Source: Microbacteriaceae bacterium (GTDB taxonomy: Bacteria; Actinomycetota; Actinomycetes; Actinomycetales; Microbacteriaceae). From it: a DNA stretch of 64,000 nucleotides. Below are positions 8,341 to 39,855 of this stretch, piece after piece. Both the position numbers and the translations under genes were made by a program. The notes below the pieces were generated by a model that worked only from the letters and a program-made list of their open reading frames with translations, ran no database searches and was not told the DNA's origin. The stretch covers positions 620,001 to 684,000 of the forward strand of contig JAPSJW010000001.1 in the NCBI GenBank assembly GCA_031177985.1, written 5' to 3'. How positions within the stretch are numbered: position 1 is the stretch's first letter; every line of letters begins with the position of its first letter.

Positions 8341-8413
8341 GCGCCCGTAGCTCAACGGATAGAGCATCTGACTACGGATCAGAAGGTTGGGGGTTCGAAT
8401 CCCTCCGGGCGCA
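8341..8413 (+). tRNA. tRNA-Arg (anticodon ACG)
   Basis: A 73-base cloverleaf: the acceptor arm GCGCCCG pairs with CGGGCGC, the D-arm region is GTAGCTCAACGGATAGAGC, the anticodon stem TCTGA/TCAGA encloses loop CTACGGA, and the T-arm carries GGTTCGAATCC. The loop places ACG at the anticodon, so it reads CGN arginine codons after A-to-I editing of the wobble base. CCA is not encoded. An intrinsic terminator follows directly. Its 3' end is repeated downstream at 8547-8571. Confidence 0.96.
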
Positions 8414-36806: not shown

Positions 36807-38792
36807 CTACTGCACCTCGACGGTGATGGTGTAGCGCGACCCGAGGCGGTCGCCCTCGGAGTAGACGATCCCGAGCGTGTGGGTGCCCGGAGCGAGCGGC
36901 GGTGTCACCCGCGCGAGCGGATCGTCGGCGAAGGTGTGCACGTTGCCCGTCGTCATACCGTCGATGTAGACCATCGCGGTGCGGCCCGGAATGCCGTCGA
37001 TGTGCACCGTCACGACGCCGTCTTCGGCGATGTCCTCGACGGTGAGGGTGGGGCGCTCGAACTTCATTGGCAGGGTCGGCGTGCTGGCGGCAGAGACGTT
37101 GCCGGCGCGATCGGTCTGCACCGCGGTGGCCACGGTGCCGTCGCGCTCGGGGTCGGGCAGCGGGATCGACCATGCCCCGGCGTCGGATGCGGTGGTCGTG
37201 CCGAGCAGGACGCCCGCGCCGTCGAACAGCTCCACCGTCGCTCCCGGCTCGGCCGTGCCCGTGATGTCGGGTAGGAGGACGAGGTCGCCCGGAGGAAGCG
37301 GCGCGACCGTCGGCGCCGGCGCGACGGTGTCGATGTGGATCGTCCGGGAGGCGACAGCAGAGACGTTGCCCGCGGCATCCGTCTGCGTCGCGTCGAGCGA
37401 GTGCGCACCGTCGGGCAGCGCAGCCGAGGGGGTGATCGACCAGGTGCCGTCGGAACCGGCCACCGCGGAGCCGCCTGCCAGCTGCACGGTCGCGCCGGGC
37501 TCGCCGGTGCCGGTGAAGGTCGGCGTCGCGTCGTTCGTGAGAGCGCCCTCGACCGGGCTGAGCACGACGGGCGCGAGCGGCGCCACGACATCGACCGGGA
37601 TCGCCGGGACCGGGGGAACCGGGCCGGGCTCGCCGGGCGGCGGCGGCGGTGCCGGTGCTGGGACCGGTGCTGGGACCGGTGCTGGTGGTGCCTGGCGTGA
37701 TGGTGCCCGCGGGTCCTCGGGCTCCACCTGCGGCGGCCCCTCCGCTGCGGGTGTCTCGTCGGGCTCCTCGGGCTCGGCGGGGTCTTCGGACGCATCGGGC
37801 GCCGGGGCGGGGGCCGCCGGATCATCCGCCGACGCGATCGGTGCGGTCGTGGGCGGCGCGAAGGCGCCACCCAGCGCAAGGGCTCCCGCCGAGGCGGCGG
37901 CCAGCCCCACGACGGTCGCGGCGGTGATGCCGGCGGTGCGCCATCCGTTGCGGCCAGCCGACACGAGGTGCTGGAGGTCGCCGGATGCGGCCGTGGCGGC
38001 TGCCGGGCGGTCGATCGCCGACAGCCAGGCCGAGCCGGCGGACCCGCCGAGCACGAGCGGGATGAGGAACGCCCCCAGCCGGCCGCTGAGGTCGTCGATC
38101 TCCTCCACCAGGATCGAGCACCGGGTGCAGCCCTCGAGGTGCGCGTCGAAGCGGGCGCGCGCCCGAGGCGTGAGTCCGCCGCGGGTGTACTCGCCCATCC
38201 GCTCTGTGGTCCAGCGGCACTCGGGCGGCACACGCGTCTCGCTCACGTGAGCCTGCAGCCAGGCCTTCCGGAGTCCCTCGCGGGCGCGGTAGGCGAGCGC
38301 GGCGGTGCTGTTCGCGCTCAAGCCCATCAGGGACGCCGCCTCGGCCGGCTCCATCCCCTCGATCTCGGTGTACCAGAGCACCGTCTGCCAACGTTCCGGC
38401 AGTGTGCGGAACGCCCGCACGGTGATCGTCTTCTCGAGCAGGTCCGTCTCGCCCTGGGCGCGCGGATCCTCGAGGTCGGCATCCTCGTCGAGTTCGACGG
38501 TGCGTTGGGTGCGGTTCCATCGCAGCGCGACGTTGTGGATGGTGCGGTAGAGGTACGGGCGGAACGCGCCGGTCGGCCCGCCTCCCCGTTTCACGGCGGA
38601 CAGGATCAGGAGATAGGCCTCGGCGACGATGTCGTCGGCGTCGGCGATCGAGTGGAACTGACGTGCGGCCGTCAGGCCCGCGCGCGAGTGGCGGGCCCAG
38701 AGTTCGGCGAAGGCCTCGGTGTCGCCCGACCGGGCGCGATCGACGAGCTGCTCGTCCCCGTCGATGGGAACCTCGCCGTCGTTCTCGCTCAC
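36807..38792 (-). CDS. ECF sigma factor fused to zinc-finger anti-sigma, membrane segment and Ig-like repeats
   Basis: 661 residues from the GTG at 38792 (GAGG 5 bases upstream). Domains in order: sigma region 2 (12-95; ADDIVAEAYLLILSAV), sigma region 4 (118-178; LPERWQTVLWYTEIEGMEPAEAASLMGLSANSTAALAYRAREGLRKA), a ZAS-type zinc finger H218-x3-C222-x2-C225, hydrophobic stretches near 241-260 and 286-309, a Pro/Ala/Glu linker (312-400) and two Ig-like repeats ending AGNVSA plus a third beta-rich unit (580-661). The sigma and its inhibitor are in one chain tethered to the membrane with a surface sensor. Release probably needs proteolysis (inference). Confidence 0.88.
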   Translation of the reverse strand: MSENDGEVPIDGDEQLVDRARSGDTEAFAELWARHSRAGLTAARQFHSIADADDIVAEAYLLILSAVKRGGGPTGAFRPYLYRTIHNVALRWNRTQRTVELDEDADLEDPRAQGETDLLEKTITVRAFRTLPERWQTVLWYTEIEGMEPAEAASLMGLSANSTAALAYRAREGLRKAWLQAHVSETRVPPECRWTTERMGEYTRGGLTPRARARFDAHLEGCTRCSILVEEIDDLSGRLGAFLIPLVLGGSAGSAWLSAIDRPAAATAASGDLQHLVSAGRNGWRTAGITAATVVGLAAASAGALALGGAFAPPTTAPIASADDPAAPAPAPDASEDPAEPEEPDETPAAEGPPQVEPEDPRAPSRQAPPAPVPAPVPAPAPPPPPGEPGPVPPVPAIPVDVVAPLAPVVLSPVEGALTNDATPTFTGTGEPGATVQLAGGSAVAGSDGTWSITPSAALPDGAHSLDATQTDAAGNVSAVASRTIHIDTVAPAPTVAPLPPGDLVLLPDITGTAEPGATVELFDGAGVLLGTTTASDAGAWSIPLPDPERDGTVATAVQTDRAGNVSAASTPTLPMKFERPTLTVEDIAEDGVVTVHIDGIPGRTAMVYIDGMTTGNVHTFADDPLARVTPPLAPGTHTLGIVYSEGDRLGSRYTITVEVQ

Positions 38793-38841
38793 CACAACCT
38801 CATTCGTGCCTGTGTCAGGGTAGACGCCTGATGAGCGGCTG

Positions 38842-38880
38842 TCATGACGCCGAAACGAACTTCTGCGACTCGCGTCATGA
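38842..38880. promoter_or_regulatory. Inverted repeat upstream of the sigma-fusion gene
   Basis: TCATGACGC (38842-38850) and GCGTCATGA (38872-38880) are perfect complements with a 21-base spacer. They lie 50 to 90 bases upstream of the sigma-fusion start and may be its operator or promoter region. CGTC occurs within the arms, as in many ECF -10 elements, but no matching -35 AAC is convincing. Confidence 0.4.
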
Positions 38881-39091
38881 TCCGCGGCTCGCGTGCGTGT
38901 ACTCCAGGACGAACCCGACGTCCGGCTGGCGGCCGACCCGACGGTCGTCGCCGTGCGCCGCGTGATACCCGCTCGCGGCGTCGCGTTCGCGAGGACCCCC
39001 TCGTGACGCCCTTGGGCGGGGAGTCCGGAGCTTTCAGGTGGCTGCCGGGCTCCCCTTGCCCGTGCCCTCAGGACCGGCGCGTTAACAGATT

Positions 39092-39126
39092 GAGGGCCGG
39101 CCGCTGAGGCTGAGCGGCCGGCCCTC
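39092..39126. terminator. GC-rich hairpin, terminator-like
   Basis: Perfect 14-bp stem (39092-39105 with 39113-39126; core GGGCCGGCCGC) and a 7-base loop. Bases after it on the plus strand are pyrimidine-rich (CTCCCTTG). No supported plus-strand gene precedes it, so it may be a relic or isolate the sigma-fusion promoter. Confidence 0.6.
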
Positions 39127-39193
39127 TCCCTTGCACCAAGAGTGTCCTGCAATCACATTCCGCGGAACCTGCCACAGCAAACAGCTTCCGCAC

Positions 39194-39249
39194 CAGAAAT
39201 ATATAACGGGGAGGTAACGGCGTCTAGTTACCTGTTCGTTATATTTCTG
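39194..39249. repeat. AT-rich 56-base inverted repeat
   Basis: Left arm 39194-39218 and right arm 39227-39249 pair as CAGAAATAT, AACG and AGGTAAC blocks, interrupted by one 2-base bulge and one 3-base mismatch, around an 8-base loop (GGCGTCTA). About 20 bp are paired. It is far AT-richer than its surroundings and lies 49 bases before the GNAT start. It could be a dyad operator, an element end or a structured leader. Confidence 0.7.
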
Positions 39250-39297
39250 CGAGTTCGCTTGGAGGCCCTAGGGGCGAATGAGCACACCATAGAGCCC

Positions 39298-39855
39298 ATG
39301 GATCTGCCGCCCCCGTTGACGATCGTTCGAGCCTCCGAGTCGCGGTGGGAAGACGTCCGGGGTCTGTTCGGGCGCGCGGGTGCGGAGAACGGCTGCTGGT
39401 GCCAGTACTGGCTGCTCGGGCCGGACTACCACCGACGTGACCGCACGAGCAACGCCGCCGACCTCAGATCTCAGGTCAGTGCCGGCCAAGGGGGAATGCT
39501 GGCTCTTCGAGGCGACGCTCCCGTGGGTTGGGCGCGGCTGACGAACCGCTCCGCGCTTACCTACCTCACCGGGCGGTTCCGCAGCTACGACTTCACGGAC
39601 GACGACCCGCTCTCGCTGGCGTGTTTCTTCGTCCGCAGAAGCGCTCGGGGGGAAGGCGTCATGACTGCGTTGATCGAAGGCGCCAAGCGGGAGGGAGTGC
39701 GACGCGGTCAACCGATCGAGGCGTATCCGATCGACACCGCCATGCCGTCGGCGACGAAGAACCGTTTCCCAGGGGTGCTCTCGGCGTTCCTCGCGTCCGG
39801 CTTCTCAGAGGTCGGCCGCCTGTCGGACGATCGAGCGGTCGTGCGCTCGCACTGA
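39298..39855 (+). CDS. GNAT-family N-acetyltransferase
   Basis: 185 residues from ATG 39298. VRASESRWEDVRGLFGRAGAENGCWCQYWLLGPDY is the opening typical of a GNAT group found in actinobacteria; CFFVRRSARGEGVMTALIEGA is the acetyl-CoA loop and IEAYPIDTAMPSATKNRFPGVLSAFLASGFSEVGR closes the fold. Substrate unknown. The ribosome-binding site is weak. An upstream-extended frame through the AT-rich hairpin is open but not supported. The broken gene at 57.1 kb belongs to a related group. Confidence 0.85.
   Translation: MDLPPPLTIVRASESRWEDVRGLFGRAGAENGCWCQYWLLGPDYHRRDRTSNAADLRSQVSAGQGGMLALRGDAPVGWARLTNRSALTYLTGRFRSYDFTDDDPLSLACFFVRRSARGEGVMTALIEGAKREGVRRGQPIEAYPIDTAMPSATKNRFPGVLSAFLASGFSEVGRLSDDRAVVRSH

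Follow-up and report, generated by a model that had tools for sequence, protein, structure and literature searches.

Why would a bacterial sigma factor carry, in one chain, its own zinc-finger inhibitor, a membrane helix and an arm of immunoglobulin-like (Ig) repeats, and which genes might it serve? This question is raised by a protein encoded on the minus strand of the window analysed here, a stretch of 64,000 nucleotides from a Microbacteriaceae bacterium (assembly GCA_031177985.1, contig JAPSJW010000001.1, positions 620,001 to 684,000). With a probability of roughly 0.6, we read it as a tethered, self-inhibited sigma factor that is released by cleavage upon a trigger at its arm and transcribes its own gene as well as genes for anchored surface proteins. 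This reading is carried by the anatomy of the protein, its recurrence in a family, and the enrichment of a candidate promoter element and of surface-protein neighbours in relatives; from these we infer the orientation in the membrane, the cleavage, the trigger and the recognition of the element by this sigma factor. The sigma part would be tethered to the membrane and held inactive by its own zinc-finger anti-sigma domain, while a single membrane helix would display, on the cell exterior, a proline-rich stalk followed by the arm with its two Ig repeats of Ca2+ type and its distal cap. The cap or the arm would sense the state of the cell surface, and in response the protein would be cut in a regulated manner within or close to the membrane helix, so that the anti-sigma domain loses its hold. 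Once free, the sigma factor would transcribe its own gene via a CGTCAT-N18-GTCT element and also at least one anchored surface-protein gene elsewhere in the genome. The features concerned are:

36807..38792, minus strand: gene for the sigma/anti-sigma/membrane/Ig-arm protein, 661 amino acids, GTG start
38259..38759, minus strand: extracytoplasmic function (ECF) sigma domains 2 and 4, residues 12-178 (Pfam, TIGR02937; folds of sigma-E, SigW and CnrH)
38118..38219, minus strand: zinc-finger anti-sigma domain zf-HC2, residues 192-225, with H218, C222 and C225 (Pfam, alignments)
38013..38078, minus strand: first hydrophobic segment, residues 239-260, proposed to be anti-sigma helix 4 and not a membrane span (AlphaFold2 model)
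37872..37943, minus strand: predicted single transmembrane helix, residues 284-307 (Kyte-Doolittle (KD) hydropathy peak, AlphaFold2 helix, acidic C-terminal flank)
37587..37871, minus strand: linker rich in proline, alanine and acidic residues, residues 308-402 (composition; mostly low predicted local distance difference test, pLDDT)
37326..37583, minus strand: Ig repeat 1, residues 404-489, with DxAGN and DxVAP motifs (Big_13/Big_6; SiiE and Bap-C folds)
37068..37325, minus strand: Ig repeat 2, residues 490-575 (Pfam; folds)
36810..37067, minus strand: distal cap domain, residues 576-661, proposed sensor (cap profile; Ig/FnIII-like fold)
38822..38849, minus strand: dyad CGTCAT-N18-GTCT, a candidate ECF promoter for autoregulation that begins 57 nt ahead of the start codon

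The domain searches recovered most of this anatomy. Sigma70_r2 (residues 43-97), Sigma70_r4_2 (126-172), zf-HC2 (192-225) and two Big_6/Big_13 repeats with best stretches at 417-489 and 510-573 all scored above the curated Pfam cut-offs, as did sigma70-ECF (TIGR02937) and the Ca2+-stabilised adhesin repeat NF033510 (77.4 bits, cut-off 50) above those of NCBIfam. Sigma regions 2 and 4 are present and no region 3 family is listed by either database, which is the arrangement of an ECF sigma factor. The anti-sigma part resembles class I zinc-binding domains in its H-x3-C-x2-C motif, an upstream cysteine and helices at 190-237. It was compared in three alignments; for two of them (A2 and A3), 103 complete fusions that carry the zinc-finger motif and are 350 residues or longer were kept, while open-ended or short homologs were excluded. 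Alignment A1 (17 rows) is the basis of the AlphaFold2 model; A2 (63 rows), selected by length and zinc-finger motif, holds 62 of 65 named fusions (without L092, L127 and L129) and the window protein; and A3 (40 rows) holds the other 38 fusions, the window protein and one fragment of the frame-broken gene L136. Here G and L numbers label genomes and loci, and G000 is the window's own genome. Genes were called with a custom script that misses or over-extends genes and often places start codons too far upstream. H218, C222 and C225 are invariant in A1 and A2 and at least 90% conserved in A3, and the upstream C192 is at least 90% conserved in A1 and A2. The zf-HC2 domain thus placed probably holds off the fused sigma part.

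In the AlphaFold2 model (mean pLDDT 74.2; predicted template modelling score 0.36, which leaves the relative placement of the domains unsettled) the sigma helices and the anti-sigma helices at 190-237 precede strands spread over 409-660, with low confidence over most of 261-400, and three beta-sandwiches are formed across 404-661. By sequence, the sigma part matched AlgU, sigma-E and CnrH in the PDB and the arm matched SiiE (2yn3). Structural comparison with VIA-align placed the sigma part with 1or7 (Z 12.6, root-mean-square deviation (rmsd) 15.4, 150 aligned) and 5wuq (Z 12.2, rmsd 3.2, 90 aligned), and the arm with Bap-C 7dm0 (Z 11.7, rmsd 6.6, 159 aligned), SiiE 2yn3 (Z 10.0, rmsd 6.8, 161 aligned) and many other Ig- or fibronectin-like chains. 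The family match to NF033510 together with the fold of 2yn3 assigns the repeats to the Ca_tandemer/SiiE type, and their DxAGN and DxVAP motifs presumably have a role in Ca2+ binding. The cap (about 576-661) has no Pfam match above a cut-off. Sigma regions 2 and 4 at residues 12-178 and the H218-x3-C222-x2-C225 zinc finger, both named in a preliminary description of this DNA, are hence confirmed by family models. Its linker of about 90 Pro/Ala/Glu residues is found as 34 Pro, 19 Ala and 9 Glu in the 91 residues of 312-402, and its "two or three" Ig-like units come to three in the model and fold matches, namely two Big repeats and the cap. The tethered architecture with a fused anti-sigma domain is likewise supported by the domain search, the model and the family survey described below.

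On which side of the membrane the arm lies depends on two hydrophobic peaks, at 242-260 (KD 1.61) and 289-307 (KD 1.88). The preliminary description had rightly listed hydrophobic segments and expected a membrane helix between residues 240 and 310, which is present (289-307 by hydropathy, 284-302 as one long AlphaFold2 helix); it overlooked that both segments cannot span if the arm is outside. If both did, the arm would therefore be cytoplasmic and the protein no surface sensor. Both segments exceed KD 1.6, and among 107 family members with a second segment 94 also show a first (KD 1.5), as two spans would predict. We nevertheless regard two spans as very improbable. The first segment is modelled as broken helices (239-247 and 251-260), contains a proline, P245, that is invariant in A1 and at least 90% conserved in A2, and directly follows the anti-sigma helices at the place of helix 4 of class I anti-sigma domains, which binds sigma2 according to the accessible passages of PMC7406223. 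The arm domains, moreover, are of exported types, and an LPXTG anchor at the end of the fusion at L133 needs an outside arm. The flanks of the second peak differ in charge among the 107 members, with on average 2.7 acidic residues after versus 0.3 before it and a small difference in basic residues (0.52 versus 0.94), although such charges are weakly informative here. We infer one membrane span with the arm outside the cell.

The protein is encoded by a single unbroken reading frame from GTG 38792 to the stop at 36807. This frame remains open upstream as far as TTG 39152, which would give 781 amino acids. GTG 38792 is preferred as the start because the family alignment begins close to it and because of a strong palindrome upstream:

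39092..39126, no strand assigned: GC-rich palindrome upstream of the gene, seen in the sequence, probable boundary

In a scan of 38600-39300 for sigma-70 promoters and terminators, a single promoter-like site was listed at 39226-39198 on the minus strand, roughly 400 bp upstream, and a single terminator-like site at 39212-39233 on the plus strand. Neither lies close to the start codon, and the palindrome is not among the terminators listed.

The preliminary description had raised the doubt that two genes might have been joined by an assembly error. Breakage of such genes does occur, as the Pseudolysinimonas gene at L136 shows, and nothing that would indicate a join was found in the window. The same in-frame, one-gene layout recurs in many independent relatives and named genomes, which makes a fusion by assembly or sequencing error a negligible prospect. 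Homologs matched at E ≤ 1e-3 in 39 of 59 genomes, the window's own included, many of them over part of the protein. Of 249 confirmed named loci the 80 best were retained, and among their hosts are Microbacteriaceae, Arthrobacter and its relatives, Demequina, Isoptericola, Nocardioides and further taxa; seven of these loci (L131, L139, L140, L141, L142, L145 and L148) encode short sigma factors without a membrane segment. Among the 63 long members of A2, Sigma70_r2 was found in 62, zf-HC2 in 62 and Sigma70_r4_2 in 55, in comparison to Big_6 in six and Big_13 in three; other members carry DUF11 or CARDB domains or, in a single case, pilin domains, and most arms match no Pfam family. The 40 nearer relatives of A3 gave Sigma70_r2 in 36, zf-HC2 in 31, Big_13 in ten and Big_6 in nine. 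The arm is therefore variable. In line with this, the window protein is 73% identical to L047, the closest relative among those compared, over the sigma and anti-sigma parts and 41% over the arm.

A profile grown from the last 86 residues matched 40 of 10,389 open reading frames at E ≤ 1e-3. Of these matches, 37 are sigma fusions (26 distinct genes, duplicate loci counted once), two belong to the same frame-broken Pseudolysinimonas sigma gene and one is an Ig repeat in a 985-amino-acid protein; since the profile was built from its own hits, the count does not test the point independently. The cap nevertheless seems to be specific to these sigma factors and would be a natural candidate for the sensor. 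Two observations on other family members may be added. The Pseudolysinimonas ortholog (L136:9919-12026, L056) is split into several frames in its assembly. In three fusions of G003 at L042 and L044 the arm is proline-rich, shows no folded domain and ends in a short acidic peptide with Trp; these fusions nevertheless adjoin giant proteins of the kind described further below.

An alignment of the upstream regions of the fusion genes revealed the dyad CGTCAT-N17-GTCT, and upstream of 38792, where the preliminary description had proposed to look for the target promoter, the candidate CGTCAT-N18-GTCT was found. The strict form (GTCAT, 15-20, GTCT) occurs in 15 of 107 fusion upstream regions against a background of 0.7%, and the form in either orientation within 300 bp upstream was detected in 36 of 107 fusion genes compared to 96 of 6420 random stretches; both counts are post hoc, as the pattern was fitted on these same, related genes. 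A less circular check with CGTMATR-N16-GTCTCWT in 59 genomes revealed 16 sites versus one for the reversed control. Nine of them lie at sigma fusions (one beyond a frame-broken one), and three of the other seven (G031, G009 and G035, from three genera) precede homologous exported proteins with LAYTG/LATTG anchors that are 37-52% identical, the G009 copy being split into two frames. These anchored-protein genes are divergent to genes that we take to be secE-nusG-like. In addition, the dyad precedes an LPVTG-anchored protein with an adhesive domain in L049, a relative with a cap-bearing sigma factor. In G000, the relaxed pattern gave 28 sites versus seven for the reversed one. The 12 inspected comprise the window site, two at a paralogous sigma gene and nine in eight regions; one of the nine, intergenic and 17-spaced, lies 118 bp before the gene for a 178-amino-acid secreted LASTG protein. 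Recognition by this sigma factor would make such anchored proteins its candidate targets.

Other occurrences of the dyad were noted in passing. A second forward CGTCAT-N17-GTCT lies 13-78 bp after the sigma gene at L069, L053, L054, L048, L070, L072, L102, L073 and L146, with sdhB alongside at the first seven of these loci. What follows it is not evidently a conserved gene and may be a small RNA; Rfam searches of seven relatives detected three ZTP and one FMN riboswitch and no known RNA downstream of the sdhB-linked sigma genes. When the sdhB-linked type of arm was compared with the secE-linked target proteins, one weak match was obtained (7.6e-6, L073 only). At L091-L101 and other Microbacterium-type loci a reversed dyad stands about 120-230 bp upstream, directed away from the sigma gene and into a GC-rich stretch with some conservation. 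At L198:1501-1530 (G044) a dyad is situated about 50 bp before a MerR-type gene that we take to be bldC-like.

The second line of evidence for surface proteins as targets comes from gene neighbourhoods. In G003, a protein of 700 or more amino acids with a C-terminal membrane anchor is encoded next to 16 of 20 fusions, compared to two of 239 controls (p = 6e-20; the controls are genes of at least 200 amino acids from 20 evenly spaced regions, not random ones), and in 13 of the 16 cases this giant is encoded directly upstream on the same strand. Surface giants also adjoin four of seven fusions in G019. With a looser criterion of 400 amino acids, the named set gave eight of 81, which include gene fragments and tether-less sigma factors, versus 15 of 669 (p = 0.002), and the remaining relatives three of 23 versus six of 173 (p = 0.07). 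Six giants that were scanned contain Big_6 (12 stretches), DUF11 (eight), SdrD_B, Big_9 and similar domains, and DUF11-type giants also adjoin L130 and L132, there without a sortase alongside. The two closest orthologs of the window protein adjoin SdrD_B proteins of 824 (L047) and 515 amino acids (Pseudolysinimonas L136), which are orthologous to each other (59% identical over 412 amino acids); the former gene is on the opposite strand, one gene away, and the latter just upstream of the frame-broken sigma gene.

Several fusions are linked to pili. The gene order in Arthrobacter sp. B2a2-09 (L149) is tip, backbone pilin, sortase, sigma fusion, and in A. alkaliphilus (L133) sigma fusion, then tip, backbone and sortase. 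On an A. alpinus plasmid, a fusion is divergent to annotated SpaA, SpaH and class C sortase genes, and on a Paenarthrobacter OM7 plasmid to pilus/sortase genes with one gene between; the A. alpinus fusions carry the window-type cap. These plasmids, with a pilus operon and a sigma fusion each (L185 and L186), are of mobilizable (A. alpinus) and conjugative (Paenarthrobacter OM7) type. The L133 fusion itself (L133:9965-12535) runs in one chain from the sigma part through the zinc finger and membrane helix to an entire LPXTG backbone pilin, and this pilin arm is 79% identical over 450 amino acids to the backbone pilin encoded two genes away, beside the sortase. The chain is known from one genome, and no plasmid record covers 80% of it.

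A less probable reading of these findings is that the sensor imitates, or even duplicates, the surface polymer under its control, which would couple the transcription of an appendage directly to its state of assembly. The arm would copy the plan of the controlled surface proteins and report their export, polymerisation or anchoring: depending on whether subunits or sortase sites are free or blocked, it would be engaged or pulled and the sigma part released. Besides the L133 chain and the fusions in or beside sortase pilus clusters (L149 and the two plasmids), this possibility draws on a G003 fusion (L154:9799-11430) that ends in an extra C-terminal membrane segment followed by RRRR, like anchored surface proteins, and on the Ig repeats of the window arm, which match Big domains of the G019 surface giants. 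On the other hand, a true pilin copy exists in one fusion only, the arms of both plasmid fusions do not match their pilins, and the cap is hardly common to other proteins in the loci examined. When 40 arms (>340 residues; of 44 fusions and fragments) were compared by phmmer with 226 same-locus proteins of at least 350 amino acids, matches were obtained for the window arm and that of its L047 ortholog only, via the Big repeats, and a general rule that the arm equals a domain of the partner was dropped. In G000, Big_6 above cut-off is confined to two sigma fusions, although a Big_13 repeat is present in an anchored protein of 629 amino acids (L182:4281-6170, C7), about 290 kb from the window gene. 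Assembly sensing may thus be a serious option for the family because a sigma-pilin fusion exists, and seems less likely for the window protein because Big_6 in its genome is confined to the two sigma fusions. If the idea holds, the arm would become part of the pilus or adhesin layer, that of one fusion being offered to the pilus sortase, and a genome rich in such pairs could switch each adhesin of a repertoire separately.

For the window protein, a ligand, the assembly of surface proteins and redox at the zinc finger are open candidates for the trigger. The preliminary description had proposed a surface signal or cell-wall binding; the latter finds no specific support, and the evidence favours surface-protein and pilus genes as targets and partners. 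The arm might instead bind a polysaccharide or another outside ligand, as proposed for ECF52, with an incidental link to surface genes. SCO4117 carries a carbohydrate-binding arm at the same position (excerpts of PMC5826349) and some ECF52/53 members have glycosyl hydrolase and carbohydrate-binding arms (excerpts of PMC10766802). This explanation appears doubtful here: no carbohydrate-binding Pfam family scored above cut-off in the window protein, Glucodextran_B being sub-threshold, and the element points to several anchored surface proteins as targets. Alternatively, the zinc finger could be the sensor, through thiol oxidation or zinc loss, and the arm merely a wall anchor. The invariance of the H-C-C motif in A1 and A2 would fit, and cytoplasmic anti-sigma factors of this class are often redox sensors, as stated in the parts of PMC7406223 consulted; the same source allows that the motif may be structural in membrane-bound members. 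Since the arm is also long and structured and has a cap family of its own, we consider this explanation unlikely. For our preferred reading, a cleavage-released sigma factor, it counts that G000 contains a gene with a HEIGH motif, which we assume to be site-2-protease-like.

Several observations weigh against this reading. No surface-protein gene adjoins the window gene, and outside G003 adjacency to surface genes is a minority. Four of the seven non-sigma sites of the less circular check are not at surface genes; two of them are inside genes, one lies before a presumably bldC-like gene and one before a presumably hydrolase-like gene. Among the nine further sites inspected in G000, seven fall within called genes and an eighth, intergenic, has no gene ahead of it, and the dyad is absent from the 400 bp upstream of the 629-amino-acid Big_13 protein. 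The window dyad has a spacer of 18 instead of the 17 of the other strict upstream sites and is without the GTCTC end, and in 20 relatives the dyad is directed away from the sigma gene. It is missing from all 12 G003 fusions in the element set, and no dyad of comparable strength was found upstream of 13 G003 giants or eight Arthrobacter-group fusions.

In the surroundings, the neighbours of the window gene look like a MarR-type regulator, a photolyase and an acetyltransferase, as we take them from their sequences. Rfam at gathering scores detected one tRNA only in the window (8341-8413). A sortase search of G000 gave a single match, near genes that are presumably gyrase- and protein-kinase-like, and no pilus cluster was present across the 18 kb inspected around it.

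How, finally, does this protein compare with known systems? The Ca2+ Ig adhesins SiiE and Bap share the Ig-repeat fold, SiiE also in sequence, and to our knowledge contain no sigma or anti-sigma part. SigI and RsgI of Clostridium thermocellum are separate proteins. In the abstract of PMC12203970, a membrane anti-sigma factor senses outside substrates, is cleaved by RseP and controls cellulosome genes, which is similar to our proposal, but with another sigma family and polysaccharide sensing. IutY of Pseudomonas putida (ECF243), in the excerpts of PMC8999054, is a sigma factor fused to a membrane-bound anti-sigma part and reported to be freed by proteolysis; it serves iron-siderophore cell-surface signalling, and these excerpts do not mention an Ig arm. 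The actinobacterial ECF53 and ECF48 groups have a C-terminally fused, membrane-bound anti-sigma extension for which cleavage is expected, and no Ig arm is mentioned in the parts of PMC8999054 and PMC10766802 that describe them; the likeness is one of description, not of group-model score.

Closest is ECF52, with SCO4117 of Streptomyces coelicolor (excerpts of PMC5826349). Like the window protein, it combines an ECF sigma factor with a fused zinc finger, a membrane segment and a proline-rich extension, and it has an exported binding domain and a proposed proteolytic release; that a surface signal leads to proteolysis has already been put forward for ECF52/ECF53 in the accessible text of PMC5826349 and PMC8999054. 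The statement of the preliminary description that the sigma/anti-sigma part is not unique agrees with these sources, in which the sigma/zinc-finger/membrane plan is ECF52/ECF53-like. In contrast to SCO4117, the window protein has Ig repeats of Big_6/Big_13 type and a cap instead of a C-terminal carbohydrate-binding module. Its candidate promoter is CGTCAT-N17/18-GTCT, compared with CSGYN-17-SRHA for ECF52, a signature itself called theoretical in the published passages, and its suggested targets are surface-protein genes. Relative to the known plan, the Ig arm, the cap nearly confined to sigma fusions and the link to surface proteins are the differences found; searches of open-licence PMC papers turned up no description of an Ig-armed or pilin-armed sigma factor or of sigma-adhesin operons, which is weak evidence. 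As far as the excerpts tell, SCO4117 alone has been characterised among the fused sigma factors of ECF52 type, for which neither a trigger nor an agreed promoter has been described. To these, the present analysis adds a candidate promoter element, anchored surface proteins as candidate targets and the cap as a candidate sensor, and the sigma-pilin fusion allows one to ask directly whether such a sensor senses the assembly of the product it controls.

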